DNA from: a virus
Strand: one strand, 5' to 3'
DNA: 24,399 bases
Virus record (IMG/VR): IMGVR_UViG_3300025108_000376
Span: 1 to 24,399 of that record
In this document: positions 8,020 through 22,624 of the stretch, piece after piece
Position numbering within the stretch: position 1 is the first letter of the stretch
Layout of the letters: every line of letters starts with the position of its first letter
The notes under the pieces: model-generated
What the model saw: only the letters and a program-made list of their open reading frames with translations
What the model was told of the DNA's origin: nothing
Databases searched by the model: none
Program-made: the position numbers and the translations under genes

Positions 8020-9681
8020 TTATCTTCCAAACATTGCTGCGGTTTGTAAGTAGTTCAGGAAGCCCGGCTGGAATGAGCTAGTCTGACCTGATGGAACGCC
8101 TGCGCCAGTAAGTGCGCCTAGAAACGTATTCAAGCCACCTGTTGGTGCGCCTGTATATTGACCAAAGTTCTGCTGACCTGCACCAATTAAGCCTTGCATG
8201 ATGCCACGCTGCATTGCGCCTTGCTGCATTTGCTGCTGCTGAATTGATTGGCCCATGTTGAACTGCTGCTGACCCAAACCTGCTAAACCACTTGCCGCGC
8301 CTTGGCGAACGCCTGCGCCAGTAAACTGGCCTTGGAAGTTAGCTTGGTTTGCTGCTTGCTGGCGACCCGCTTGAGCTTGAAGCGCTTGGTTGATTGCAGC
8401 TTGGTTTGATAGACCCGCAGCCTGCGTTAGGCCAGCCTGTTGAGCGGCTCGTGCTGCGTCTTGTTGCGCTGCCGTTATACCTGTTGCTTGCGTTAGACCA
8501 GCTTGCTGTGCCGCCCTTGCCGCATCTTGTTGTGCTGCGGTTATACCTGCCGCTTGCGTCAATCCAGCCTGCTGTGCTGCTGCTGCATTTTGCGCTGCAA
8601 TGCTTGATAGACCAGCTTGCTGGGTCAAGTTCGCTTGTTGTGCTGTTGCTGCGTTTAATGCAGCCATGTTTGCTTGACCTGCTTGCTGCTCAAGTTGCGC
8701 TTGCGTCTGTGCAAACTGATTGGCGGCTTGCATATTGCCAGATCGTGCTGCCTGCTCACGAGCCGCTGCCGCTTCACGAGCCTGCTGACCAAGTTGGCTT
8801 GCTTCAAAACCTTGCTGAGATGCAAGTGTGCGAGCCGCTTGCGTTTGACCAATATCAAACTTGCCGCTCTCAACGGCTTGCTGGAACCCTGCTTGGCGCT
8901 GCTGCGCTGATAGCTGACCCGCTTGACGTAAAGCCTCACCAGCCAAAACACCTTCTTGCACAGCTTGACGCGATCCGCCAAACGCACCCGCTTTTTGCGC
9001 CTGTGATGCAAGGTTTTCAGATGCCATTTGTCTTTGACGCTCAATGTCGGCCTGACCCGCCTCTATCACTTGCTGCTGATAGGGGTTCATGTATGTGGAT
9101 ATGTCTTGCGTCTGCAAGCGATCCACAGCGATTTGATCAGGCGCTTGTGCCGCTTGTACAGCCCCAACAGATTGCATTCTTTCTGCTGGGCTTAGTTGTG
9201 CAGCTTGCATCTGTGAGGTTGGGCCAACCTGCGCTCCACCAAAAGTCACAGCAGGGGCTACAGTAGCTCCGCCATATGCTTGCGTTTTCTCAACTGTTGC
9301 ACCGCCATATGCAGGCGTTCTCTGAACCGTTGCGCCACCGTATGTTGCCGTTGGGCCTGCCCGTGCAGCTTGCATCTGCTGTGGAGTAAATTGCGATAAA
9401 CCACCCATCGTTTGTTGCGCCTGACCTATAGACTGCGCAGACTGCTGATAGATGTTAGGTTGAGTTTGAGATTGTGGGCGAGAAAGAGGAGTATTGGCGG
9501 GATTACGCGGCATAACCGCTCGCTGTGCGCCCATGCCGCCATAACCTGTACCCATGGTTGGATTGTATACATTTTCTGGGCCTAAGTTTGTGGGCCTTTG
9601 CACACTTCCTGTTGGTGTGCTTCCACCTTGTCCCGCTAAACCGCCGCTTGGAAGTCTTTGTCCACCTGCTGATGCACCCAT
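8020..9681 (-). CDS. Ala/Gln-rich virion protein with tandem repeats, candidate ejection protein
   Basis: A 553-residue protein of very low complexity. Residues 1-110 are Gly/Pro/Gln-rich and probably disordered. Residues 114-157 are four 11-residue YGGATV units. Residues 196-240 hold a motif I recognise from many marine phage virion proteins: YMNPYQQQVIEAG, DIERQRQMASENL, then AGAFGGSRQAV. The stretch 250-440 is an Ala/Gln helix with 22-residue repeats at 350-437. The end has GFLNYLQTAAMFG. Its helical, repeat-rich nature fits a protein that unfolds or stretches during DNA delivery, but no activity is shown. It starts behind a good AGGAG site, and is followed immediately by the lysozyme-domain gene. 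Confidence 0.75.
   Translation of the reverse strand: MGASAGGQRLPSGGLAGQGGSTPTGSVQRPTNLGPENVYNPTMGTGYGGMGAQRAVMPRNPANTPLSRPQSQTQPNIYQQSAQSIGQAQQTMGGLSQFTPQQMQAARAGPTATYGGATVQRTPAYGGATVEKTQAYGGATVAPAVTFGGAQVGPTSQMQAAQLSPAERMQSVGAVQAAQAPDQIAVDRLQTQDISTYMNPYQQQVIEAGQADIERQRQMASENLASQAQKAGAFGGSRQAVQEGVLAGEALRQAGQLSAQQRQAGFQQAVESGKFDIGQTQAARTLASQQGFEASQLGQQAREAAAAREQAARSGNMQAANQFAQTQAQLEQQAGQANMAALNAATAQQANLTQQAGLSSIAAQNAAAAQQAGLTQAAGITAAQQDAARAAQQAGLTQATGITAAQQDAARAAQQAGLTQAAGLSNQAAINQALQAQAGRQQAANQANFQGQFTGAGVRQGAASGLAGLGQQQFNMGQSIQQQQMQQGAMQRGIMQGLIGAGQQNFGQYTGAPTGGLNTFLGALTGAGVPSGQTSSFQPGFLNYLQTAAMFGR
8371..8634 (-). repeat. Four 22-residue (66-bp) coding repeats
   Basis: Residues 350-437 of the Ala/Gln-rich protein are four units of 22 residues. 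The middle two (372-393, 394-415) are nearly identical, reading AGLTQA[A/T]GITAAQQDAARAAQQ in two pieces with only residue 7 changed; the outer two are degenerate. A 22-residue period equals six helical turns, so the units can stack as a long continuous helix. The near identity of the inner pair suggests recent unequal duplication. Confidence 0.85.
9211..9342 (-). repeat. Four 11-residue (33-bp) YGGATV repeats
   Basis: Residues 114-157 consist of four units starting at residues 114, 125, 136 and 147, each Y/F-G-G-A-T/Q-V followed by a variable five-residue tail. The exact 11-residue spacing and the fixed aromatic-Gly-Gly core suggest a repeated turn-strand element. The DNA copies have diverged at third positions, so the repeat is kept at protein level. 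Confidence 0.83.
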
Positions 9682-10545: not shown

Positions 10546-11201
10546 CCGTGCATCCTCGTGATGTGCAGCGTAGTCGCTGGTGCCGCTGGGCTAAATGAAG
10601 TTGCCGCAGACGCATCCAAGAAGCCTGACGTGCCATCCACCGCCCACATGACCTGTAATTCATCGCCAGCCGCCACATCAAACTTGGCAGAACGCGAAAC
10701 AACCACTGTCGCGTCATTCTGGTGTAGCGAATAGATGATCGTATTGTTTGGCGCATCCGTGCCGTTCAGGCGAGGCCAGAAGTAAAACCTCACCGTGCTA
10801 GATGACGTTGACGAAATCTGCGCTGAAAACATCAGTAGATACTCGCCAGCCTCGCTAAACACGATCTTGCTGTTGTCTGTCGCATCCCGATCTATGCCAA
10901 CATTGCCGCTTGGCGCATCGTACGTTATTGCGTACGCCGTATCTGCTGCTGCAGCAGTAACATCCGTTGTGCGGTAAAACGAGGCGTGACCGTCCTCTAA
11001 GACGATCTGCACAAACGCACCATCCTTGGATACAACAGGATACTTGTATTCACGATCCCATAAGATAACGCCATCTTCTGCCGCGCTGTCATAATCGCGT
11101 CTGTGCGTAAGAAAAGAGCGTGTCCTCATAAGCCACGCACTAAACTTCTCTGCCCATACCTTAAAATCTGGGCCTATTGGGGGCGCACCATAGAAACTCA
11201 T
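10542..11201 (-). CDS. C1q/TNF-like jelly-roll virion protein
   Basis: A 219-residue protein. Residues 1-75 form a linker with a helix (FKVWAEKFSAWLMRTRSFL). Residues about 75-215 read as alternating beta strands of a C1q/TNF-like jelly roll: SKIVFSEAGEYLLMFSAQIS, VRFYFWPRLNG, NTIIYSLHQND, KFDVAAGDELQVMWAVDG and a last strand ATTLHITRM. The pairing of 'F-x-x-x-G-x-Y-L-L-M-F-S-A' with 'V-x-x-G-D-x-L-x-V' is the classic C1q-like layout. Such domains trimerise and bind surface ligands, so a receptor-binding or fibre-attachment role next to the nozzle is plausible. It overlaps both neighbours by 4 bases. Confidence 0.66.
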   Translation of the reverse strand: MSFYGAPPIGPDFKVWAEKFSAWLMRTRSFLTHRRDYDSAAEDGVILWDREYKYPVVSKDGAFVQIVLEDGHASFYRTTDVTAAAADTAYAITYDAPSGNVGIDRDATDNSKIVFSEAGEYLLMFSAQISSTSSSTVRFYFWPRLNGTDAPNNTIIYSLHQNDATVVVSRSAKFDVAAGDELQVMWAVDGTSGFLDASAATSFSPAAPATTLHITRMHG

Positions 11202-12706
11202 CGTTTGCTACCCTGCCGCGCATCAAGACGCATGACACCCACACGCCAATCCGCTGCCTCTGCACCCTCAACGCGCATTCTAACCTGACGACCTTGGAAG
11301 CGTACAGATGTTGGGTTTGCCGTGTTAAATGGCCCCTTTTCTGTTTCCGTTGCATTCGGGTAGTTGCGCACCTTAAACTTCAAATCCACATCGCCCTGCG
11401 TTTTTTCATCAGGTATGACGTTGGTGACTTTCATCAGACGCTCACCAGTGCCAATGGCAATTGGGCCTGTCTCTGCGTATGGTGTCGCCCCATCATAATC
11501 AAAACCAACTTCATGCTCATACACAACGCCATCTGATTTAACCAAGAACGGCAAGCGGAATACGCCGCGATCCACACCCGCAGTGCGATCCATGTCGCCA
11601 GTTGACCAGATGTTTTCAACGTAATCATATGCAACGTACTTGTCGCATTCATCGCTATCCTGTGATTGATACACCCACCAGACTTCATTCCACTGGCTGT
11701 TGACCATAGCCTGCACCTTAGATGCTTGGTCATAATTGATATTACTAAATACCAGATCAGCGACCTCGCACGGTATTTCGCGCACTTGACCGCCAGAATA
11801 GATGAAGAAGCCACGACGACCCATCCAGATCACGCCAGCGTCAACAGATGCATATGCACCCGCCGCAATCAATCCACACGCCGTACCGACACGCTCAAAG
11901 CCGTATACAAACGGTGGGCCTTGGTATGTCATTGTATGCGCGTCTTGGTCTGTAAGGATCAAAGACTGACCGCGTGTGCGTACACCCGCTAGGATCGTGC
12001 CGTTGGTTTGCAGTTCAATGTCACCAGCTTGGTTTGTCGCCGCCGCTGTCCATGTGTTGTAATCTTCCTGATCTGACCATGCCACACGCTTTGAAGATGA
12101 CTGAGACACGCTGTAATCCGCTGCAAGAGCCACCAAGAAGCGTTCCTCTGTTACGAATGTCGCTGTGCAGCCCGTAGGCGCGTTTGTGACCGCCGTTAGA
12201 TCGTTGGCTGTTTCCAAGTCCCATGAGTAGATAACGCCATCGTCAGACGAACATGCGATTAGTTCCTCACCCCAGTTATCTAGTGACCATGTAGTTGCGC
12301 GTAGAATAGAACCTAAGTCTGGACGCGCTACGCCCCAACCAAACAAGCCCCAGCCACCTGAACCCCAGCCAGTGTTGACCGTTGCATCTACGCGGCCCGT
12401 TGTAAGTGCGCTGGGTGTAATGTCTGCCGTAATAGAGCTTTCCAGCATAGCTGTCACAGTGTCGTGCGATCCGAATGCAGCGAAACGCTCACCGTCATTG
12501 TCTACCCAACAATGGACACCGCGAACAACACCGCCAGCATCTACTGGGCTATTATCGGACTGTGCGCGTGGCCTCCAACCGCCAATCGGACGCAAGGCAT
12601 CCTCATGCCAACGCACTAGGTTTACGTCACGCCAGCGACCCTGAGATTGATACTCTGTGCCGTTTGCGTACTGCCCCTTGGGGATGTTTAGCGGGACTAA
12701 AGACAT
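11198..12706 (-). CDS. Tail nozzle protein, P22 gp10-like
   Basis: A 502-residue protein whose length and composition match the P22 gp10-type nozzle that stacks under the adaptor and closes the portal channel. It has many beta blades: GGVVRGVHCWVD, FAAFGSHDTV, the tryptophan-glycine segment at 113-125 (GWGSGGWGLFGWG), KRVAWSDQEDYNTW at 206-219, and QSLILTDQDAHTM. Further on are GVIWMGRRGFFIYSGG and DKYVAYDYVENIWS. This order is typical of the propeller-like nozzle family in marine podoviruses. The first codons overlap the end of the kinase/nucleotidyltransferase gene by 10 bases. It is placed between that enzyme and the C1q-like gene, supporting a tail-tip location. Confidence 0.78.
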   Translation of the reverse strand: MSLVPLNIPKGQYANGTEYQSQGRWRDVNLVRWHEDALRPIGGWRPRAQSDNSPVDAGGVVRGVHCWVDNDGERFAAFGSHDTVTAMLESSITADITPSALTTGRVDATVNTGWGSGGWGLFGWGVARPDLGSILRATTWSLDNWGEELIACSSDDGVIYSWDLETANDLTAVTNAPTGCTATFVTEERFLVALAADYSVSQSSSKRVAWSDQEDYNTWTAAATNQAGDIELQTNGTILAGVRTRGQSLILTDQDAHTMTYQGPPFVYGFERVGTACGLIAAGAYASVDAGVIWMGRRGFFIYSGGQVREIPCEVADLVFSNINYDQASKVQAMVNSQWNEVWWVYQSQDSDECDKYVAYDYVENIWSTGDMDRTAGVDRGVFRLPFLVKSDGVVYEHEVGFDYDGATPYAETGPIAIGTGERLMKVTNVIPDEKTQGDVDLKFKVRNYPNATETEKGPFNTANPTSVRFQGRQVRMRVEGAEAADWRVGVMRLDARQGSKR

Positions 12707-13479
12707 ATAGAAACTCCCATTGATTTACGAATTTCCGTTCCAGACACAGATTGTATATCTTCATTGAAAAACTCTTGCTCAATAGTATACCCTACTTTTC
12801 TGCCATATGTAATATTTGTTACATTAGGAACACGTTGGACAACGTATTGACCTTGGTAGAACGGCTCTAAATCACGGTCTATAAAATCTTTTACAGTTTT
12901 AAAATCAAAGGGATTGTTAGAGTTGGTGCCGCAGCAACCACGAACTTGTATCACAACCTGCCCTGTCTTTTGAACGGCTCTATCAAATAAAGCCCTGTGA
13001 CCTGTATGCCAAGGTTGCCATCTACCAAGCATTTGAACAGTGTCTTTAGTCCAATCAAACTCAGGTCTGCGCTTGTTTTCTTTAATATAGCTTGCAATAA
13101 ATAACGCCCATTTTTCAGCGTTTTTTTCTGTAATCCTAAAGTCGTAATGAGAAGGCTTAGTGAACATTTTATTCGTGTCTTCAAAACGACTTTCAAGTAA
13201 CGTGTCTACCCAAACGATCCAATCTGCTGAAAACAAATTTCTAAACTCGTCAAGAGGTGCAACAAAATCGGCAATGACGTAGTTAGCACTGGAAGACTTG
13301 CATAAGTCTCTCATGCGTTTCGCTTGACGCAATCTGCCGCTATAAGAAAAGTCCCAATCATTAGCCATTTCTCGCACAACATCTGCATTATATAGCTGTG
13401 CGCCTAAATGCCCCTGCAGAGCTTTAGCTAAAGTTGTCTTCCCTGAATTGGGAAGCCCCATGATAAGAACGCTAACCAT
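12697..13479 (-). CDS. APS-kinase-like plus HxGH nucleotidyltransferase two-domain protein
   Basis: A 260-residue fusion. Residues 1-130 are an APS-kinase-like P-loop domain: Walker A GLPNSGKTT (8-16), YNADVVRE in the place of the kinase D-G-D-x-V-R, DWDFSYSGRL matching the 'DLGFS' region, DFVAPLDEFRNLF matching the 'SFISPxxxDR' strand, and a WVDTLLE strand (90-96). Residues about 146-255 are a nucleotidyltransferase: GRWQPWHTGH with His158/His161, NNPFDF, and SGTEIR at 246-251. The first motif resembles NMN adenylyltransferase (GRFQPFHxGH) more than ATP sulfurylase (QTRNPxHRAH), while the kinase-then-transferase order matches animal PAPS synthase. Likely makes an activated nucleotide such as PAPS, possibly for the nearby sulfotransferase. 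The precise substrate is unresolved. NadR-type NAD salvage is the main alternative, although NadR has the domains reversed. Confidence 0.75.
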   Translation of the reverse strand: MVSVLIMGLPNSGKTTLAKALQGHLGAQLYNADVVREMANDWDFSYSGRLRQAKRMRDLCKSSSANYVIADFVAPLDEFRNLFSADWIVWVDTLLESRFEDTNKMFTKPSHYDFRITEKNAEKWALFIASYIKENKRRPEFDWTKDTVQMLGRWQPWHTGHRALFDRAVQKTGQVVIQVRGCCGTNSNNPFDFKTVKDFIDRDLEPFYQGQYVVQRVPNVTNITYGRKVGYTIEQEFFNEDIQSVSGTEIRKSMGVSICL

Positions 13480-13484
13480 TTAAA

Positions 13485-13967
13485 TTAAGGCTTTGTAGGC
13501 CAGTCAGCATCTTCCAAATTGGGCCAGTTGGCGTGTGTGGTTATGTCACGCAATGCTTGGCGGTAATCTGCCCATTCAGAAGATAGAGTGTTATCACTCA
13601 ACGCCATCCAATCAGTTTCAGCTAAAAGCGCATCTCGCTTTTCACGACCAGCACTTTCAGCAGCAGCAGCCGCTTTTACTGCAAGCTCCGCGATTAAGGC
13701 TTCTTTTTCTTCAGGAGTATATTTCTGCACAATTTCCCATTGCTGCACAAAAACACCGTTATTCTCAACAGGGGGTAGCTCCCTAGCTTCCTCAAACTGA
13801 GAGTTATATTCCTCTGGGTCAGCCAACTGAAAGGGTGCAAATCCGTACTCCCTAACGTTTACGTTAGACATATCTGCGGGAAAGCTGACGTTTTTATTTT
13901 CAAAACGTATGCGCTGAACCGCGAGAGGCCATTCTATCGGCGTATCGTTTTCTAATTTAACATACAT
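13485..13967 (-). CDS. Tail-fibre assembly chaperone-like protein
   Basis: A 160-residue protein. The N-terminal half is a short 'MYVKLENDTPIEWPL' lead with RENK-type charged strands and ADPEEY. The C-terminal half has the family hallmark KRDALLAETDW (about 109-119), then ALSDNTLSSEW, ADYRQALRDI, and WPTKP at the end. The 'R-x-x-L-L-x-x-T-D-W ... Y-R-Q-A-L-R-D' pattern marks phage tail assembly chaperones (PF16778-like). These help trimerise or fold a fibre, usually encoded next to it. Here it lies between the sulfotransferase and the kinase gene, near the glycine-rich adhesin, which may be its client. An Ala-rich helix at about 95-108 is a likely linker. Confidence 0.8.
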   Translation of the reverse strand: MYVKLENDTPIEWPLAVQRIRFENKNVSFPADMSNVNVREYGFAPFQLADPEEYNSQFEEARELPPVENNGVFVQQWEIVQKYTPEEKEALIAELAVKAAAAAESAGREKRDALLAETDWMALSDNTLSSEWADYRQALRDITTHANWPNLEDADWPTKP

Positions 13968-13979
13968 AGTGCTTTTCTC

Positions 13980-14756
13980 CTATATCACACGCAAACCATC
14001 ATACAACGCATTCGTCATTTCGTCACTTATTTGCTGAATATTTTGGGGCAGGCCAATATTATTCTCACGAAACTTTATTTCTTGCCTAACCTCATGCATA
14101 CCGACAAGGCCGTACACATCATCATTTTCAACAAATACCTGCTTTATCGTATCAAAGTCGTGCGCAAAGGGATCAATCTCACAATGCTCATATATTTTCT
14201 CTAATACCATAGAAGGATTTTCTACAAGTGATTTGTATGTCACAAACAAAAACCCCTCATCACGAATGTATTTGGCATATTTAATGCCTTCAAGAGGCAA
14301 GGTAAGCGGGTCTGTATTTGGCAAAAGAAGGTCTGTATACACATCACCGACCCAACCGTTATCTAACCTAAGTTTTGCAAAAGACCTTACAATTTCATCT
14401 ACGGGACGAATTAAAACAACCACTTTTGGATTTTCATCTATGTAACGCTTTATCATCTGATGGTTTTCATAGAGCGTCCAAGTACGACATTTATCAAAGA
14501 CAATATCCTTGCTGACAGACTTATAATACAAAGCGGGAAGCTCTGTCATAATATCCTTGCTAGTTTCCTCTAATCTGCGACTTGCCTTTAAAGCGTCTTC
14601 TGCTGGGCCATTTATTGAACACTGCATATCCCACATCATCTGACATAAAGCAGAACGCCCCTCTGAGTACACAGAAGGGTTCTGCATCAAAATGTTTGAA
14701 AGCAGCGTAGAGCCTGTTCGCGGCAGTCCACTTATATAGCAAAGTCTTTGCTTCAT
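13980..14756 (-). CDS. PAPS-dependent sulfotransferase
   Basis: A 258-residue protein with the standard sulfotransferase motifs. Residues 10-19 (GLPRTGSTLL) form the 5'-phosphosulfate-binding loop. Residues 113-126 (VVLIRPVDEIVRSF) form the 3'-phosphate site with Arg117 and Ser125. Residues 171-194 contain FVTYKSLVENPSMVLEKIYE, the conserved helix near the C-terminus. It would move a sulfo group from PAPS to a hydroxyl or amino acceptor in the infected cell's cytoplasm. The acceptor cannot be read from sequence: a fibre, the glycine-rich adhesin, or a host polysaccharide are all possible. It is preceded directly by the glycine-rich adhesin gene (stop and start share a base, TAATG) and followed by the chaperone gene. 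No signal peptide or membrane segment is seen. Confidence 0.88.
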   Translation of the reverse strand: MKQRLCYISGLPRTGSTLLSNILMQNPSVYSEGRSALCQMMWDMQCSINGPAEDALKASRRLEETSKDIMTELPALYYKSVSKDIVFDKCRTWTLYENHQMIKRYIDENPKVVVLIRPVDEIVRSFAKLRLDNGWVGDVYTDLLLPNTDPLTLPLEGIKYAKYIRDEGFLFVTYKSLVENPSMVLEKIYEHCEIDPFAHDFDTIKQVFVENDDVYGLVGMHEVRQEIKFRENNIGLPQNIQQISDEMTNALYDGLRVI

Positions 14757-15565
14757 TACGGAGTGCCAACATCCGTAGTTGGAAACTGGCGTGTATCGCC
14801 CGGGAAAATTATCCGCACGGCACCATTCGCTCCCGCCGCGTTCCCTGCTCCGTTGGCTTGCGTTGACTGTCCACCTTTGCCAACAACTACTGTGTAAGAT
14901 GTGCCGGGGCTAACCGTTATGTTGTTTTTATAAGCTAATCCGCCGCCGCCGCCACTTTTATAGCTTGTAGAGCCGAATGCCCCACCGCCACCGCCAAAGT
15001 AGCCCGGTGAGCCGTATTTTGCAAAAGTGCCGCCGCTACCGTCACTACCGCCGCCACCGCCGTTGACACTAGCTGCCGTACCACCAGCACCGCTAGTGCC
15101 TTCTCCAAAAACATTAACACCGCCACCAGCAGACCATCCAAGGCCACCGCCGCCGCCACCACCAGCACCGCCGCCGGAACCTGCTGTTCCCGCAACATAA
15201 CTGCCACCGCCGCCGCCGCCGTTACCAGAGTAGCCTGCCGCACCGCCGCCACCACGGCTTCCGCCTTGACCGCCACTGTTGTTAGCATCACCGCCAGATG
15301 CAGTGCCGCCAGCATTGGTTGCATTGTTGCCAGCCGCGCCGCCATTAGCCTGAACGACTGTGCCTCCCACCGTTATTTTAGATAAACCACCAGCTTCTGA
15401 TCCAACAACATGACCTGAACCTCCTGCACCAACAACAACAACGCTAATAGACGTTACTCCATCGGGGCATGTCCAAGAATATGTCCCTGGAACTGCAAAT
15501 AAACTTTCACCTCTAGGCACTTCGTCTACTCCTCCTACCATTAAAGTTTTTTTCCAACTACTCAT
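14756..15565 (-). CDS. Glycine-rich tail-tip adhesin
   Basis: A 269-residue protein. The N-terminal 60 residues are a small beta domain (SLFAVPGTYSWTCPDGV, TSISVVVVGAGGSG) typical of phage glycine-rich domains. Residues about 70-210 are a glycine-dominated region with runs of five to seven Gly separated by Ser, Asn, Tyr and Phe. This resembles the polyglycine-II sandwich of T-even type gp38 adhesins, where glycine helices support variable loops that recognise receptors. The end (NGAVRIIFPG, RQFPTTDVG) is a marine-phage terminal signature. It has an AGGAGA site before the ATG at 15565. Receptor recognition is inferred from fold similarity. GCC/GGC codon richness makes this region GC-heavy compared with its neighbours. 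Confidence 0.82.
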   Translation of the reverse strand: MSSWKKTLMVGGVDEVPRGESLFAVPGTYSWTCPDGVTSISVVVVGAGGSGHVVGSEAGGLSKITVGGTVVQANGGAAGNNATNAGGTASGGDANNSGGQGGSRGGGGAAGYSGNGGGGGGSYVAGTAGSGGGAGGGGGGGLGWSAGGGVNVFGEGTSGAGGTAASVNGGGGGSDGSGGTFAKYGSPGYFGGGGGAFGSTSYKSGGGGGLAYKNNITVSPGTSYTVVVGKGGQSTQANGAGNAAGANGAVRIIFPGDTRQFPTTDVGTP

Positions 15566-15589: not shown

Positions 15590-16555
15590 TTACGACGGCG
15601 TTTTCAAATCTTTACCCGCAGTAAAACCGTACCAAGTGGTGCCGCCATCATGCGTGTAAAAAACAAACTGATCTACTGCTGAAGCGGTATCGGTAAGGGT
15701 GGGGGCGGTGCCGCTAGGAAAGTCTACCGATGCAGGCCACGCAATAGTGTAACCGCTGGCACTCGCATCCTGTATTACCTTGAGAGAAAACCCATAAGCC
15801 GTACCACTTGCGGGGGGATTACTCCATGTAAACGTACTTACATTCTCGCTCAGAGTTAGTGAAAATACGTTACCCGTTTCACAGTTAAGTGTGGCCGTAC
15901 CGCTAGATGAAGTAATTGCAGAAAACGTATCGTTATAGCTTTTTGCTTTTAGCTCTTCTGATATATTAACATCGCCATTCGCATCCGCAGTTACCACTTT
16001 GCTTGCTTCTGTAAGGCCAAGCGTTGTGATGTCATTGTAGTTTAGCTCCGCAGTCGTCGCTGTAACGCCTTCTAGAATATTTAACTCCGCTGCCGATGCT
16101 GTAATACCCAGCGTGGTTAGCGTTGTCGCGTCAATAATTGCCCTGACGTTCGCCGCAGCACCAGAGCCATCGCAGTAGATGATACCAGTTGATCCATTGG
16201 CTACAGTGACATTATCACCAGTGCCTTGCGTAAATGTGCAGTCATATCCGCTATTGTTATCTACAAGGTAAAACTTAGTTGCATCGTTTGGACTTACTGT
16301 GATCGTGCAATCCTCTGTCGCGCCAGATAGCACAAGAACTTTATACATCCCGTCATCCAAGCTGTCGCCTGTCGTACCGTCTGTTGTGCTTAGAGTGTGT
16401 GCCGCAGCAGAGGATGATAGATCAATCGTGCCAACGCCAGATGCTGCACGATCTAAGATGTCAAAGTTACGGTTTGTAATCTGACCCCATGTATCTGTCT
16501 TTTCACCGTCAGCGATTTTTTCAACCGCGTTGTTAAGTGTCCAAGTGCTTGCCAT
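15590..16555 (-). CDS. Tail fibre protein (shorter paralogue)
   Basis: A 321-residue fibre. The N-terminus (TWTLNNAVEKIADGEKTDTW, then GQITNRNFDIL) matches the attachment domain common to phage fibres. Residues 145-175 carry LGITASAAELNILEGVTAT and AELNYND, a repeat well known in marine phage fibres that probably forms a trimeric beta/coiled shaft. Residues 222-310 are the C-terminal module shared with the upstream fibre (NCETGNVFSLTLSEN ... THDGGTTWYGF). It ends FTAGKDLKTPS. Likely trimeric and involved in host contact. The gene is separated from the glycine-rich adhesin by a 24-base gap. Confidence 0.83.
   Translation of the reverse strand: MASTWTLNNAVEKIADGEKTDTWGQITNRNFDILDRAASGVGTIDLSSSAAAHTLSTTDGTTGDSLDDGMYKVLVLSGATEDCTITVSPNDATKFYLVDNNSGYDCTFTQGTGDNVTVANGSTGIIYCDGSGAAANVRAIIDATTLTTLGITASAAELNILEGVTATTAELNYNDITTLGLTEASKVVTADANGDVNISEELKAKSYNDTFSAITSSSGTATLNCETGNVFSLTLSENVSTFTWSNPPASGTAYGFSLKVIQDASASGYTIAWPASVDFPSGTAPTLTDTASAVDQFVFYTHDGGTTWYGFTAGKDLKTPS
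15626..15892 (-). repeat. Shared C-terminal fibre module, copy 2
   Basis: Residues 222-310 of the shorter fibre align with residues 516-596 of the longer one. Common features are an N-C-[ED]-T start, FSLT, a WP-x-SVD-[FW] core and the end DGGTTWYG. The copies have diverged at DNA level, so the duplication is old or they were acquired separately. Confidence 0.8.
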
Positions 16556-16590: not shown

Positions 16591-18405
16591 TTATGCCGCA
16601 GCGTCTACGGATAGTACGCCGTACCATGTTGTTCCGCCATCTCTTGTCCAGAATACGTAAATGTCAGTTTCACCACTTGCGGGTGCATCAGGTGCAGTAC
16701 CACCCGCCCAATCTACTGAGGTAGGCCATGTGACTGTGCCACCGTTGCCTGTTAGCTCTAGGACAAAACCAGTAGACCATGCGTTAGTCACACTGTTAAA
16801 TGTAAACGTAGTATTGCCTGTCATCGTTAAGCTAAATGCTTGGGCAGTGTCGCAGTTTACCGTGACAGATGTGCCTGATAATGCGTCATAATCTTCGTAG
16901 TATACGTTATAATTATATGTACCAGTATTCCAAACCTCTAGTATCTCAGTTCCACCAGCATAAAAATTAATGTGGTTGGTTCCAAAGTTAATGCGAGTAT
17001 CAGTATCACCTTCATGGTAAATGTTATCTGCAACATAGATATTATCTACAGCATTGAGATCGCCCTGTATGTTTGCGCCAGTACTATTAGTATTAAACTT
17101 GTATGTCCCATTGTAGTAAAGATAAGTTTCGCCGTTGTGGGTACAATTTAGTAACCATTCATTATCTACGTCGTTATAAATGCCAGTAGTAGTGCTATTA
17201 TTATGCATAAACACAGCACGACCACCAATGCTATAACCTTCCCAACCAGTATGCGCACCACCATCAATCTGTATAGAGCCATAGTTGCCAGAGACAGGTT
17301 GGAAGTAGCCGTTGCCTGTGTCGCCTAGTTGAACGCCTGTTGGGGTGACTGTTATTTCTTGTGATCCACCTGCGCCTATCGCAACACTATTAGTTCCAAA
17401 TGATAGGAAAGTATCGGTGTCACCTTCGTGGTAAAGACTTCCAGCAATATAAATATTATCGGCAGCATTTAGGTTGCCGTTGATGTTTAGCCCTGCAAAC
17501 GAGGGGCTGTCACCCGTACCTAAACCTAGTGAGTTCTTAAAGCCTGTCGCATTGTTTTTGCGGATATAGTTGTCACCTGATGAATAGAATGTGGTATCAG
17601 AATCTCGCTGATATGTCGTGTGCGACATACTGAGATAAGCGGAAATGCCATACCTCATATAAAGATCGCCACTACTGTTTCTCGCAGCTAGAGTGCTTCC
17701 CGTACTGCTTTCACTTGCATGATACCCATCCAACAAGTCAGCATCTAGGCCAGAGCCAGAGCCATCGTTGCCAGAGTGCCAGATTGAGTGCGCACTATTT
17801 CCAACAGTAGGCCATTGATCAGGGTAAACGGTTAATGAGTATACAGAGTTATTGCCACCACCCCTAATATGAACATCAGAACCACTCTTTGCAGAAACGT
17901 AAGTGTTCCCATCGTTGGTGCCGCTGATGATCATATAATCAGTAGTGTTTGACATAAATGACGTTTTCATGCCTACATATGATGTGCTTGTAGAATATGC
18001 GTCATCTCCGATGATGAGGTTGCCGCCGTCAGCTTTTAGGTTTTCGCTAACGGTTAAGTCACCTGTCATTGTATCCGATTGATCACTTCGTAGGAAGCTG
18101 CTTGCATGTAGGCTGTCTACTGTGTCAGCATCAATATTCAGTGCATCAATGTCAGCCTTGGTTTGATCAGCAGTAGCACCGCTCTCAATGCCATCCAGCT
18201 TTGTGCCATCCGCAGCAATATCACGCCCATCAACATTCCCGCCAACCGTAATATTACCAGTGACGTTGATTGCGGTCAGCGCAGTCGTACCCTTCAACAA
18301 GCTCTCAAGCGTGTCAAAGTTACCATTTAAGTAGCCGCCCCAGACATCCTCATCATCTCCGACTGTCGGCTTTGCAAAACTATATGTTGTTGTATAAGCA
18401 ACCAT
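16591..18405 (-). CDS. Tail fibre protein (longer paralogue)
   Basis: A 604-residue fibre. Residues 1-40 include a fibre-type attachment segment (DVWGGYLNGNFDTLESLL). Residues about 58-125 hold a marine fibre shaft (DGTKLDGIESGATAD, ADTVDSLHAS, DTMTGDLTVSENL). A DADLLDGYHAS motif at 221-231 is of the kind seen in many fibres. Two copies of a N-x-x-A-x-DNIY-x-A ... YHEGDTDT element lie at 311-339 and 449-477, spaced 138 residues apart. Residues 516-596 are the C-terminal module shared with the shorter fibre. It is likely trimeric and distal parts probably touch the receptor. The ribosome site is weak, and no chaperone domain is seen at the end. Confidence 0.85.
   Translation of the reverse strand: MVAYTTTYSFAKPTVGDDEDVWGGYLNGNFDTLESLLKGTTALTAINVTGNITVGGNVDGRDIAADGTKLDGIESGATADQTKADIDALNIDADTVDSLHASSFLRSDQSDTMTGDLTVSENLKADGGNLIIGDDAYSTSTSYVGMKTSFMSNTTDYMIISGTNDGNTYVSAKSGSDVHIRGGGNNSVYSLTVYPDQWPTVGNSAHSIWHSGNDGSGSGLDADLLDGYHASESSTGSTLAARNSSGDLYMRYGISAYLSMSHTTYQRDSDTTFYSSGDNYIRKNNATGFKNSLGLGTGDSPSFAGLNINGNLNAADNIYIAGSLYHEGDTDTFLSFGTNSVAIGAGGSQEITVTPTGVQLGDTGNGYFQPVSGNYGSIQIDGGAHTGWEGYSIGGRAVFMHNNSTTTGIYNDVDNEWLLNCTHNGETYLYYNGTYKFNTNSTGANIQGDLNAVDNIYVADNIYHEGDTDTRINFGTNHINFYAGGTEILEVWNTGTYNYNVYYEDYDALSGTSVTVNCDTAQAFSLTMTGNTTFTFNSVTNAWSTGFVLELTGNGGTVTWPTSVDWAGGTAPDAPASGETDIYVFWTRDGGTTWYGVLSVDAAA
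16618..16860 (-). repeat. Shared C-terminal fibre module, copy 1
   Basis: Residues 516-596 of the longer fibre (TVNCDTAQAFSLTM ... TRDGGTTWYG) match residues 222-310 of the shorter fibre. It is likely a small beta-rich tip or head domain that has been moved between fibres. Confidence 0.8.
16975..17061 (-). repeat. Internal fibre repeat, unit 2
   Basis: Residues 449-477 (DLNAVDNIYVADNIYHEGD, then TDTRINFGTN) repeat residues 311-339 with the same DNIY and YHEGDTDT landmarks. Confidence 0.78.
17389..17475 (-). repeat. Internal fibre repeat, unit 1
   Basis: Residues 311-339 (NLNAADNIYIAGSLYHEGD, then TDTFLSFGTN) are the first copy; it lies 138 residues before the second, indicating an internal shaft-domain duplication. 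Confidence 0.78.
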
Positions 18406-19809: not shown

Positions 19810-20430
19810 TTAGTAAGTGTTGACCTGTATTCTCATGCCGCTACTTGATTGGCTTGTTTTCAGGCTTACACGATTAATGTCTGCAACTGCTTTTGCATAG
19901 AGGCTTGACCATACCGCTACACGCTCATCCTCGCCAAGATATGGCGCTGCTTGCATCAGTGATCCATACAAGTATGCATCTGGCGCATCCCCCAGCAACC
20001 AGTTGGTTGTTTGGCTTGCTGATAGCTTGGGAATTTCTTGGTAGTAAATCAGTTCCATTGTGTATGTCTGATCTGGCGTTGGGAATAGCTCAAATGTCTC
20101 GCCAATGTGGGCATACAGTGTTGGGCGACCTTGCGTGTTCTGATTGCTTTCGCGCCGCGTCATCATGTCGTTGAGCGTCGTCATCTCCAGCTTAAACGTG
20201 TCACCCGTTGTGATGCCGAAACGTACTGTCTCCAACCAATCAGCAGGGACTGCGCTGTATTGGCTATCCAATGCGCCTGATGACCGCTCAATCATCTTGT
20301 AGTGACGTATCTCACGCTCCATTTGCTTTTCTGCAATGGTGATGAAATCAGGTATGACTGACGTTAGATCATCCCGATCTAGCCAGTTTGCTACCGCTGT
20401 TTTTAGCTCTGAGTATCTTGTTATAGCCAT
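19810..20430 (-). CDS. Head-tail adaptor (SU10-type, P22 gp4-like)
   Basis: A 206-residue protein from the ATG at 20430. The open frame extends 18 codons upstream (to 20484), but those codons overlap the preceding gene, and the chosen ATG shares one base with its stop (TAATG). The pattern ITRYSELKTAVANWLDRDDL, then IPDFITIAEKQMEREIRH, PADWLETVRF, GRPTLYAHIGETFELFPTPD, LIYYQEIPKL and NWLLGDAPDAYLYGSL is characteristic of podovirus adaptor rings. These bind under the portal and connect to the nozzle. Many copies of such proteins pair with SU10-type capsids, which fits the capsid gene here. Confidence 0.86.
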   Translation of the reverse strand: MAITRYSELKTAVANWLDRDDLTSVIPDFITIAEKQMEREIRHYKMIERSSGALDSQYSAVPADWLETVRFGITTGDTFKLEMTTLNDMMTRRESNQNTQGRPTLYAHIGETFELFPTPDQTYTMELIYYQEIPKLSASQTTNWLLGDAPDAYLYGSLMQAAPYLGEDERVAVWSSLYAKAVADINRVSLKTSQSSSGMRIQVNTY

Positions 20431-22364
20431 TATTGCTCGCTTTCTTGCATAGCTGCCATCGGAACCATCGCAGCAATCACCCAATTAGGCGCGTTTAGCT
20501 TTCTAGCCTTTTCTATCATTTTACCAGTGACTTTTCCACCAGATAGAAGGTCTTGCGCAAATCGCATCGCCGCTTCCCGACCAAATCTACGCTCTACCTC
20601 TAAGAAACTATCAACTGTCTCTACGTCTATATCTTCAATACGCTGCTTGGCGCGTTTTGGGCTGGCCTCATACACTTTGTAATCCGCACTGTTCATCAAC
20701 AATCCACCACCTGTACCTTTGGCGCGTTGTTCTTCTGCCAAGTTACGGAACAATAGGTTTGCTGGGATGCCACGCGATCCCGACAAGTAAGTATCTGAAC
20801 GATCCTCTAATTTGTCATATCCATATCCGTAAGTTGTAGACTGATCTGGGCGCGTTTCTAATACGCCTTTCTGCACATCAGGTGTAAACCCTCGGTATCC
20901 TGTCGTACCCCAATCCATACCTAACTGCGCAGCATCTGCCACCGCCAGACGCGCATCTTGTACTTTCGGTATGCCTAGCTTGTGCAGCGTTGCTTTATCC
21001 AAGCCCTTCAAGAAGTAAGCCCGATGTGTACCGCTAGGAAGATTTGCAATGTATTCTTGCATTGCGCGAGGATCAGATACGCTCGGCGTATCAACATAAG
21101 GCTTTGTCGCTACAGATTGCGTTTTCTTAGAGCCGTCTTTATTCAAGATTGGGTTGCCATCTGCGTCACGCTTTACAATAACTTCTGGCTTACTGATGTT
21201 GCGGATCATTTCATCAGCTTTTGCCACATCGCTCGGCTCAATCTGCGCTGACTTCATCATTTCACCGAAAACCATGCCCTCATGCAATGAAAAGTCGGAT
21301 GATTTCTCACCCATCAAAACACTCATGACATATGGATCAACGCTGCGCTTTGCTTCTTTTAGCTTACTCTGCGTTGCACTCAGTGCGCCTGCATAGCCCT
21401 GACCGGGGATGTCTGTAAACTCAAATCCAGCTAGACTTTTTTGCGGTGTCTCAAAAACCATGTCATTCACTGAGGTGATCGTATGTCTGCCTGATTGATC
21501 TCCTACAATGCTCATCACGTCACGCCCTAACAGACCTGCGATTGTGCCGCGCTCTACAGGATCAAGACGCTCATCTGACAAAATACCTGAGCTTCTGTGC
21601 TGAGAAAGTGCCACTGGTTTTTGCGTTGTGATGTTTGTGACGTTTGACATTGGAACGACAGGTTCACCTTTTACAATTTCCTCTGCTGAAGGAAACTGAG
21701 AAAGATATTCTGCAATATTTGCTCCGCTACGCTCATAATCTGTGCCAGCAGCACTTAAAGAACGTACTGGTCTGCTGCGCGTAAAAGTATCGCTGATGCC
21801 CTCTAAGTCACCCGACAACAGGCTGCGAGTTAATCCAATGGCATCCGCTGATGTCTTTGGCGCTACACGACTTGCTGTTTTTAATGCACCACCAACTACA
21901 GGTACAGCCGCAAGCAATCCCTCTGCTACGCCCATAGCTGTGTTAAAACCCTCTATGCCAGCACTTTTATAATCACCTTCTCGGACGTAAGGCATGATCT
22001 CTTGGCTGGCAATTTTAGCTTCTTCTAAACCAATAGCCGTTCCCAACGCAGGCGTATAATCTGCTGCTGTTGCCGCATCTGTAGCTTTGCGCAAATCACC
22101 AGTTTTATCCAAAACGTAGTTAAAAATACCCTCGCGGATTGCACTACGAGATGCATTTGCTTCTAACGCTGCTTCTAAATCATCCGCTGAATAGCGATCA
22201 ACTGGCATCGCGTGAAAGTCCCGGCGCTGACCATCTGGCGTGTAAATTGTATCAATACCGCCATATTGACCAAAGTTGACATCACCAAAAGTCGCCGCCG
22301 CTTCTTCACGCAACAACGCTTCTTCTTCTGGTGTTCTGCCGCCTAAAACTTGAAACAGGTTCAT
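20430..22364 (-). CDS. Large putative ejected protein with polyvalent-protein-like segment
   Basis: A 644-residue protein from the ATG at 22364, which shares a base with the previous stop; a GTG two codons earlier (22370) is less likely. The N-terminal 100 residues are charged and helical. Residues about 140-162 are hydrophobic and Gly/Ala-rich (VAEGLLAAVPVVGG), a possible membrane insertion. Residues about 434-496 (AMQEYIANLPSGTHRAYFLK, GLDKATLHKLGIPKVQDA, then TTGYRGF) resemble a segment of phage large polyvalent proteins. The C-terminus is helical. It has no clear catalytic motif. By size and composition it is a candidate for injection with DNA, yet it lies apart from the other ejection genes near the portal. 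Function unknown. Confidence 0.68.
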   Translation of the reverse strand: MNLFQVLGGRTPEEEALLREEAAATFGDVNFGQYGGIDTIYTPDGQRRDFHAMPVDRYSADDLEAALEANASRSAIREGIFNYVLDKTGDLRKATDAATAADYTPALGTAIGLEEAKIASQEIMPYVREGDYKSAGIEGFNTAMGVAEGLLAAVPVVGGALKTASRVAPKTSADAIGLTRSLLSGDLEGISDTFTRSRPVRSLSAAGTDYERSGANIAEYLSQFPSAEEIVKGEPVVPMSNVTNITTQKPVALSQHRSSGILSDERLDPVERGTIAGLLGRDVMSIVGDQSGRHTITSVNDMVFETPQKSLAGFEFTDIPGQGYAGALSATQSKLKEAKRSVDPYVMSVLMGEKSSDFSLHEGMVFGEMMKSAQIEPSDVAKADEMIRNISKPEVIVKRDADGNPILNKDGSKKTQSVATKPYVDTPSVSDPRAMQEYIANLPSGTHRAYFLKGLDKATLHKLGIPKVQDARLAVADAAQLGMDWGTTGYRGFTPDVQKGVLETRPDQSTTYGYGYDKLEDRSDTYLSGSRGIPANLLFRNLAEEQRAKGTGGGLLMNSADYKVYEASPKRAKQRIEDIDVETVDSFLEVERRFGREAAMRFAQDLLSGGKVTGKMIEKARKLNAPNWVIAAMVPMAAMQESEQ

Positions 22365-22624
22365 TACCACTTAACCTTGTTCGCCCAGTATGCCGCACTC
22401 ATCTTGCCCTTGGAAATGTTCTTGGCATGTCTTGCTTTGAATGATTTGGCACGTTTTGTCATTGTTTTATCGCCTGTCTTACCCTGCTGACCAAAGCGGA
22501 TCGTCTTAACCTTGTCACCTTCCTTTGCCACAACAACGTGTGACTTGGTTTTGTGACTAGGTGTGCGTTTGGGCTTGTTGTAGCCACTAACGCCTGCTCT
22601 GGCTAATCTGGGGTCTTTAGGCAT
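22364..22624 (-). CDS. Small basic phage protein (DUF6321-like)
   Basis: An 86-residue protein rich in Lys. The pattern KPKRTPSHKTKSHVVVAKEG, TIRFGQQGKTGDKT, then SFKARHAKNISKGKMSAAYW and the ending ANKVKW is a family I recognise as DUF6321 in marine phages and some bacteria. It has a compact head and a basic tail, so nucleic acid contact is plausible. It overlaps both neighbours by one base (TAATG). Biochemical role unknown. Confidence 0.84.
   Translation of the reverse strand: MPKDPRLARAGVSGYNKPKRTPSHKTKSHVVVAKEGDKVKTIRFGQQGKTGDKTMTKRAKSFKARHAKNISKGKMSAAYWANKVKW

Follow-up and report, generated by a model that had tools for sequence, protein, structure and literature searches.

A DNA stretch of 24,399 nucleotides from a marine phage (positions 1 to 24,399 of IMG/VR record IMGVR_UViG_3300025108_000376, hereafter "the window") carries, in the midst of its tail genes, a sulfotransferase and a two-domain kinase-nucleotidyltransferase fusion. 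In our view this fusion is probably a compact bifunctional PAPS synthase that feeds the neighbouring sulfotransferase one gene away, the acceptor being most likely a tail adhesin or fibre. An earlier note, drawn from the sequence of the window, had suggested that these two enzymes together might both produce PAPS and consume it in the infected cell. The class of the kinase, the apr operons of SAR11 bacteria and the recurrence of the gene order in phage L012 all support that idea, the joint function being something we infer.

The tail locus

The setting of the locus among tail genes is given by tail-fibre and nozzle PHROGs found in the profile search of the window (Table 1). According to the ORF listing, 5 bases separate the fusion from the chaperone gene and 12 bases separate the latter from the sulfotransferase gene. 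There are also two overlaps, of 10 bases between the fusion and nozzle genes and of 1 base between the sulfotransferase and Gly-rich genes. The two enzymes had been placed one gene apart, between the Gly-rich tail protein and the nozzle, and three complete ORFs bear this out. Two genes for tail-fibre proteins lie upstream.

Table 1. Genes and domains of the tail locus, in coordinates of the window.
Feature	Position	Strand	Basis
Nozzle-like virion protein, directly downstream of the fusion	11198..12706	-	phrog_3287
Two-domain kinase-nucleotidyltransferase fusion, 260 aa, candidate PAPS synthase	12697..13479	-	phrog_10255, 163.9 bits
Fusion, nucleotidyltransferase half, residues 140-260	12697..13062	-	GRWQPWHTGH, VRG, NPF, YGRKVGY, SGTEIR
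Fusion, kinase half, residues 1-136	13072..13479	-	GLPNSGKTT P-loop, NADVVR, DWDFSYSGR, DFVAP, RFEDTNKMF
Tail-fibre assembly chaperone (Phage_tail_APC), 160 aa, between both enzymes	13485..13967	-	Phage_tail_APC, 50.2 bits
Sulfotransferase (Sulfotransfer_3), 258 aa	13980..14756	-	ORF and profile match; complete ORF
Gly-rich tail protein/adhesin, possible sulfation acceptor	14756..15565	-	phrog_4474
Tail-fibre protein, other possible sulfation acceptor	15590-16555	-	PHROG match
Tail-fibre protein, other possible sulfation acceptor	16591-18405	-	PHROG match

Among IMG/VR relatives, two contigs carry the same genes at 100% and a third at 94-96%, and the retained genes have dN/dS values of about 0.23 and 0.12, calculated from few substitutions. 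The fusion belongs to a family with at least hundreds of viral members among the matches listed. Because they are retained in these relatives at low dN/dS, and because the fusion family is so large, the genes are more than a chance occurrence.

The kinase half is related to APS kinases

In the fusion of the window, residues 3-82 match the APS_kinase profile with 24.8 bits (cut-off 21.1), a score near the curated Pfam cut-off and far under that of the NCBIfam apsK equivalog. Taken alone this copy is ambiguous, AAA_18 and KTI12 scoring similarly. Across the fusion family, the APS_kinase profile matches 24/24 members. When a family profile of 24 homologues was compared with the PDB, the 20 best matches were APS kinases, headed by 2yvu (E 5e-15), and shikimate and seryl-tRNA kinases reached only ~1e-5 in the same search. 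The AlphaFold model (pLDDT 89.5) finds its best PDB fold matches in the APS-bound APS kinases 3uie and 1m7g.

In the CysC protein of M. tuberculosis, APS is held by residues K456, D480, R483, F492, and R497 (PMC4373884). These map to K14, D33, R36, F44, and R49 of the fusion, each of which is invariant or at least 90% conserved in the family alignment. The kinase half thus resembles CysC and the APS kinases (PF01583) in its P-loop GLPxSGKTT, in the DxxR, F and R positions that contact APS, and in its best profile and fold matches, but it differs by its shorter lid. This lid is reduced to RFEDTNKMF, with conserved K104 and F106 as putative counterparts of CysC K562 and F576; since it is shorter than in APS kinases, these Lys/Phe contacts are unproven. 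Judged by sequence and predicted structure, the kinase half belongs with the APS kinases. The APS-kinase landmarks reported earlier are therefore upheld by the family profile, the fold and five APS-contact positions, and the closest relatives of this kinase family, by profile as by fold, are APS kinases and not non-sulfur kinases only.

A shortened NMNAT-type domain at the C-terminus

The earlier note had also called for profile searches of the fusion for APS kinase and ATP sulfurylase; the first was recovered, but the canonical Sat (PF01747) was not. No ATP sulfurylase appeared among the C-half matches in sequence-profile and fold searches, no similarity to PF01747 was found, and the C-half does not contain the sulfate-binding RNP loop of Sat (QTRNP). 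On the evidence of sequence and model, it is not a classical ATP sulfurylase. In the window copy, residues 152-179 match CTP_transf_like, under the cut-off. The fold is that of a shortened NMN-adenylyltransferase, with NMNATs as the closest relatives by sequence and structure comparison, and the domain carries the HxGH ... S(G/A)TxxR motifs of NadM. GRxQPxHxGH, NPF, and S(G/A)TxxR are all shared with NadM-type NMN adenylyltransferases (2qjt, 1f9a, 1ej2). However, the C-half counts 121 aa versus ~168 aa for NadM, and in the aligned family these missing 45 or so residues correspond to the segment from NPF to the end motif SGTEIR. It also has an additional invariant GRxVGY and a conserved VR, and the genomic context of the domain is APS reductase, not NAD synthesis.

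Could the fusion then be a NadR-kind enzyme of NAD salvage, directed for example against NAD-depleting defences, with the sulfotransferase adjacent by coincidence? The kinase would phosphorylate nicotinamide riboside and the NMNAT half would make NAD, in keeping with the NMNAT likeness of the C-half, with the NADAR and MazG genes that adjoin or lie near the fusion homologues of Sanovirus and Salvovirus, and with the NadM/NadR-type NAD synthesis that occurs in phages (PMC9503650). We consider this very unlikely, as the kinase half is APS-kinase-like rather than riboside-kinase-like, the two domains come in the opposite order from those of NadR, the C-half of ~120 aa is devoid of the stretch that NadM has from NPF to SGTEIR, NadV occurs in 0/50 fusion-bearing records, and SAR11 puts the nucleotidyltransferase (NTase) domain in apr operons.

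The same domain accompanies APS reductase in SAR11

SAR11 are the commonest bacteria in the ocean, and in these the same NTase domain is encoded by a separate gene, with no kinase attached. Among 198 SAR11 genomes, the NTase and AprB co-occur (107/131 versus 8/67 without; odds ratio 33, p 4e-22, statistics that ignore the phylogeny of the genomes), and in 44 of the genomes the NTase lies within 4 kb of aprB. The order NTase - membrane protein - aprB - aprA is seen in four SAR11 loci (L307, L308, L315, and L316). The NTase thereby occupies the sat slot ahead of an AprM-like gene and aprBA, as in the sat-aprMBA operon of Allochromatium (PMC3779200), a placement that argues for working like Sat and not for membership of the Sat family. 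Besides this position, the NTase shares HxxH, GRx, and SGTxxR-like motifs with the dissimilatory Sat of Allochromatium vinosum, but it has no detectable PF01747 similarity or RNP loop and is about one third the size. It is because of these apr operons that we tie the NTase domain to APS metabolism. P. ubique has AprBA and neither sat nor cysDNCHIJ (PMC5069961), most SAR11 are reported to be without ATP sulfurylase (PMC10356861), and CysD and AprB were found together in 0/7 within the same genome set. The domain of the C-half may account for the ATP sulfurylase missing from SAR11.

It is conceivable that only the kinase half is sulfur-related, turning host APS into PAPS, and that the C-half activates a different substrate by adenylylation or cytidylylation, for example a sugar or an anionic acceptor employed for glycan decoration near the tail genes. 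The kinase evidence is indeed stronger than the NTase evidence, CTP_transf_like is among the domain matches, and glycosyltransferase, carbamoyltransferase, and methyltransferase genes adjoin several fusion genes. We nevertheless find this unlikely, given that SAR11 has a kinase-free NTase in the place of sat, ahead of the AprM-like gene and aprBA, and that the strength of its co-occurrence with AprB points to APS itself.

Sulfotransferases were also surveyed in SAR11, where 14 genomes have Sulfotransfer_3 matches but neither NTase nor CysD. The sulfotransferase/NTase association (p 1e-4 with all matches) counts as weak support, since it is lost with strong matches alone (p 0.24) and genome size is a confounder. 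The pair has an osmolyte/C1 neighbourhood in many SAR11 genomes, which by itself suggests no function.

The sulfotransferase and its pairing with the fusion

The sulfotransferase of the window matches Sulfotransfer_3 with 49.5 bits, above the curated cut-off of 27, and the two PAPS-binding motifs previously read in it, 5'-PSB GLPRTGSTLL and 3'-PB LIRPVDEIVRSF, are both present in the ORF. It shares this family and both motifs with other marine phage sulfotransferases, including those of Synechococcus phages S-SKS1 and S-SRM01 (27-30% identity to the window copy), but no fusion was detected in these cyanophages.

The order Gly-rich - sulfotransferase - small gene - fusion recurs in L012, a structurally unrelated phage, with 54% identity for the sulfotransferase, whose 5' PAPS motif is kept, and 62% for the fusion. 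The Gly-rich, small-gene, and nozzle proteins of L012 have no significant match to their window counterparts, the Gly-rich position being held by a Gly_rich_2 protein. Related phages were fetched with the nozzle-like protein (phrog_3287) as query: in 80 such relatives, both genes are absent outside the window's own lineage, and Sulfotransfer_3 occurs in 0/50. One sulfotransferase match in nozzle relatives L228 and L229 was rejected, as it stems from the portion of the L011 fusion that resembles a glycosyltransferase. The two genes thus do not simply occur independently of each other, as the order returns in L012 and the nozzle relatives are without both.

In six tail-locus lineages, a sulfotransferase is found at most 5 genes from the fusion. 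Overall, 12/79 loci have one within 6 genes and 67/79 have none in that range, and of 50 records with the fusion, 6 further ones pass the Sulfotransfer_2 cut-off. In the tree of the fusion, sulfotransferases recur on 8 or more separate branches, and the label is not clustered. In L098, a tail-type locus, the 4 upstream genes visible include no sulfotransferase. The loci L030, L046, L051, and several of L079-L087 have DUF2061, a domain linked to cys genes, next to the fusion; this domain was dismissed as a sulfur clue, an APS-kinase motif being nearby in just 1/20 alphaproteobacterial DUF2061 loci.

Both genes might also be passengers of a hypervariable tail slot with no joint action, the sulfotransferase using host PAPS and the fusion serving general nucleotide metabolism. 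Such a reading would suit the slot that separates tail fibre from nozzle, which varies strongly among the 80 relatives, the location of most fusion homologues in replication-type regions without a sulfotransferase, and the existence of phage sulfotransferases without the fusion, as in cyanophages. It is unlikely in view of L012, where the pair has the same order and spacing despite unmatched neighbours, of the six tail-locus lineages that hold both kinds of gene, and of the lack of Sulfotransfer_3 in the 50 nozzle relatives.

A compact PAPS synthase?

We read the phage fusion as a PAPS synthase because the SAR11 context, with its APS reductase and sat slot, suggests the job of the C-half. The C-terminal NMNAT-type domain would make adenosine 5'-phosphosulfate (APS) from ATP and sulfate, replacing ATP sulfurylase, and R153, R180 and R227 are predicted to contact APS or sulfate in it. 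The N-terminal APS-kinase domain would convert APS into PAPS by phosphorylation, and the Sulfotransfer_3 enzyme nearby would then use this donor for sulfation. The likeliest acceptor is the tail adhesin or fibre of the same operon, modified either directly or on a glycan that it carries; a host surface sugar is a less likely acceptor. Like PAPSS1/2 and the Aquifex SAT/APS kinase (2gks), the fusion is a single chain in which an APS kinase is joined to an adenylyltransferase that depends on ATP and belongs to the HxGH superfamily, and as in PAPSS the kinase is N-terminal and the transferase C-terminal. Unlike PAPSS, it has 260 aa instead of ~620, a shortened NMNAT-type domain in place of PF01747, and a reduced kinase lid.

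Significance

Two kinds of ATP sulfurylase are generally held responsible for sulfate activation. The balance seems to us about even as to whether the C-half is a third kind, of NMNAT fold and neither Sat nor CysDN, that would partner APS reductase in SAR11 and, fused to APS kinase in phages, form an unusually small PAPS synthase which works with a sulfotransferase to sulfate the tail adhesin of the virion itself. Our search of the open-access literature turned up no account of the fusion, of any PAPS synthase from phages, or of a substitute for sat in SAR11. If these proposals are true, the gap in SAR11 sulfur metabolism, an APS reductase reported mostly without ATP sulfurylase (PMC5069961; PMC10356861), gains an expressible candidate of ~125 residues. 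Some phages would bring both the synthesis of the sulfation donor and the transferase, encoded among their tail-adhesin genes. Finally, the sulfotransferases of marine phages, including those in OM43-phage genomes, whose role is stated to be unclear (PMC10580990), would receive a testable one.

The tail cassette

The window, a virus record of 24,399 bases, carries a podovirus-type structural module, recognized by ORF calling and PHROG profiles and read leftwards, in the order terminase end, adaptor, tail fibres, nozzle, portal, scaffold and capsid. Among isolates, Octadecabacter Antarctic DB virus 2 comes closest, with 48-50% identity in portal and nozzle. Two large ORFs of the module (646 and 553 aa) lack any PHROG match. 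The slot between tail fibres and nozzle holds four genes that overlap or lie 5 to 12 bases apart, so they likely share one transcript. ORFs and profiles confirm what the earlier note had observed here, a sulfotransferase one gene away from a kinase-nucleotidyltransferase fusion. In profile search this sulfotransferase is an ordinary Sulfotransfer_3 member (49.5 bits) with both motifs for the sulfate donor PAPS. Its phage relatives, at 26-31% identity, belong to cyanophages and single-cell marine viruses, and a pattern scan of IMG/VR finds it only within the window's own lineage.

Table. Coordinates of features in the window and in compared database loci (L-numbers)
Feature	Locus	Coordinates	Strand	Remark
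Gly-rich protein	window	15565-14756	-	first in transcription order of the slot
Sulfotransferase	window	14756-13980	-	second in slot
Tail-fibre chaperone	window	13967-13485	-	third in slot
Kinase-nucleotidyltransferase fusion	window	13479-12697	-	fourth in slot; 260 aa
Large ORF	window	20430-22370	-	646 aa
Large ORF	window	8020-9681	-	553 aa
Sulfotransferase with C-terminal extension	L011	3364-5217	+
Sulfotransferase with C-terminal extension	L019	2881-4650	+
Two sulfotransferase-like genes	L055	5298-6984	+	immediately ahead of fusion

The kinase half

Taken by itself, the window's kinase half scores barely above the APS_kinase cut-off in profile search, and other P-loop families score similarly. 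Unlike this single copy, the homologue family settles the choice, and the domain is therefore assigned to the APS kinases: all 24 aligned homologues match APS_kinase, and when their profile is compared with all PDB chains, places 1-20 go to APS kinases, with shikimate and seryl-tRNA kinases trailing by about ten orders of magnitude. Structure prediction, which the earlier note had proposed for the enzyme pair, agrees (pLDDT 89.5), its best matches being APS kinases with bound APS. The residues holding APS in M. tuberculosis CysC, K456, D480, R483, F492 and R497 (PMC4373884), align with K14, D33, R36, F44 and R49 of the fusion, which are invariant or nearly so among homologues. Compared with known APS kinases, the lid is shorter.

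The nucleotidyltransferase half

The second domain, a candidate third kind of ATP sulfurylase, is the unexpected part. By profile and fold it is an NMN adenylyltransferase of the NadM type, and it is not a canonical ATP sulfurylase; of the two profile matches that the earlier note had suggested looking for, APS kinase is upheld by the family profile and ATP sulfurylase is not. The domain also differs from NadM: it has only ~120 residues, lacks the segment that leads from NPF to the SGTxxR-type motif, and shows a conserved VR and GRxVGY of its own. In ATP sulfurylase, a GRD loop and an SGTxxR motif surround APS and pyrophosphate (PMC3779200). The window's copy carries YGRKVGY and SGTEIR, and most relatives GRDVGY or GRGVGY plus ISATxIR. 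This likeness at the level of sequence motifs is suggestive only.

Being NMNAT-like, the C-terminal half could instead make the fusion an NAD enzyme, and in Stenotrophomonas and Xanthomonas phages the gene does lie near NADAR and MazG genes; the kinase type, the domain order and the missing NadM segment all argue against this. Moreover, NadV, described as an invariable companion of NadM in phages (PMC9503650), occurs in 0 of 50 fusion records, among them records as long as 236 and 321 kb. In the Sanovirus/Salvovirus loci L002, L003 and L005 the fusion follows an NADAR-annotated gene (L002; a same-length gene elsewhere), near a MazG-like gene and with no sulfotransferase nearby. The best-supported reading, and a probable one, is still that of the earlier note, in which donor-making and donor-using enzymes would sit in one tail cassette; the kinase family, the SAR11 apr context and the recurrence of the pair in the phage locus L012 point to it.

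Recurrence of the pair

Relatives of the fusion are encoded on more than 598 IMG/VR stretches, and a Sulfotransfer_3 gene lies at most five genes away in six tail-locus lineages (window/L008-L010, L011, L012, L015/L016, L019 and L021). The best case is L012, in the order Gly-rich protein, sulfotransferase (54% identity), small gene, fusion (62%); for the Gly-rich protein, the small-gene product and the nozzle, BLAST finds no significant similarity between this phage and the window. Six of 50 fusion records carry a Sulfotransfer_2 match above cut-off, and the two adjacent sulfotransferase-like genes of L055 have PRSGST/NRSGST starts and no Pfam match. At L098, where the fusion stands beside tail genes, no sulfotransferase is found among the four upstream genes available. 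The slot is highly variable across 80 nozzle relatives, where neither gene occurs outside the window's lineage, and Sulfotransfer_3 is found in 0 of 50 nozzle-relative records examined.

Mapping the sulfotransferase label onto the fusion tree takes eight changes or more, which means repeated association rather than a single inherited block. Co-occurrence, which the earlier note had proposed to survey, holds for these lineages but not generally: no sulfotransferase lies six or fewer genes away at 67 of the 79 fusion loci, many of which belong to replication-type regions. The use of the fusion is therefore broader, unless its partners are transferases encoded farther away or by the host. Between the window and its sister phage L010, synonymous divergence is 0.08 for the fusion gene and 0.44 for the nozzle, as if the former had been recently exchanged. 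DUF2061-type small membrane proteins are encoded a few genes from the fusion in L030, L046, L051 and several of L079-L087; a cys-gene link was not confirmed for them.

Candidate sulfate acceptors

Glycosyltransferases, a carbamoyltransferase, methyltransferases and RCC1-repeat adhesins are encoded at several fusion loci. In L011 and L019 the sulfotransferase forms the N-terminal part of a ~600-residue protein, and the L011 extension is related to a lone 333-aa glycosyltransferase-like protein that comes next after an RCC1 adhesin in L228. These neighbours and architectures favour the tail adhesin as acceptor; a host surface glycan is possible.

The nucleotidyltransferase in SAR11

A scan of bacterial genomes shows that SAR11 chromosomes hold both fusion domains, mostly as two neighbouring genes. 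In L165 they lie near aprB and aprA, both recognized by NCBIfam models above cut-off, and near an incomplete gene with a match to xsc; in L105, L117, L133, L142, L153, L160 and L164, one or two unrelated ORFs (~600-780 aa) are inserted exactly between them. Among 198 SAR11 genomes, 131 have the nucleotidyltransferase (E < 1e-20) and 115 AprB, the latter present in 107 of the 131 bearing the nucleotidyltransferase vs 8 of the 67 free of it (odds ratio 33, p 4e-22, uncorrected for kinship and genome completeness). Unlike these statistics, gene adjacency stands regardless of such correction: the nucleotidyltransferase lies within 4 kb of aprB in 44 genomes. Lone genes of this type, with no kinase adjoining, stand in or beside aprMBA operons on the contigs L307-L310, L315 and L316. 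The order in L307, L308, L315 and L316 is nucleotidyltransferase, membrane protein, aprB, aprA, with a TauE-like sulfite-exporter gene next in three of the four; in Allochromatium the operon reads sat-aprM-aprB-aprA (PMC3779200).

ATP sulfurylase is absent from most SAR11 (PMC10356861), and Pelagibacter ubique reportedly encodes AprBA while lacking both sat and cysDNCHIJ (PMC5069961). PF01747 was found in 1 of 21 SAR11 genomes tested and CysD in 7 of the 198, none of these 7 also having AprB. That the nucleotidyltransferase substitutes for ATP sulfurylase is the economical reading, and the lone genes of the six contigs are candidates for the missing SAR11 enzyme. If this domain is indeed a third kind of ATP sulfurylase, it would also close the recorded gap in SAR11 sulfite oxidation.
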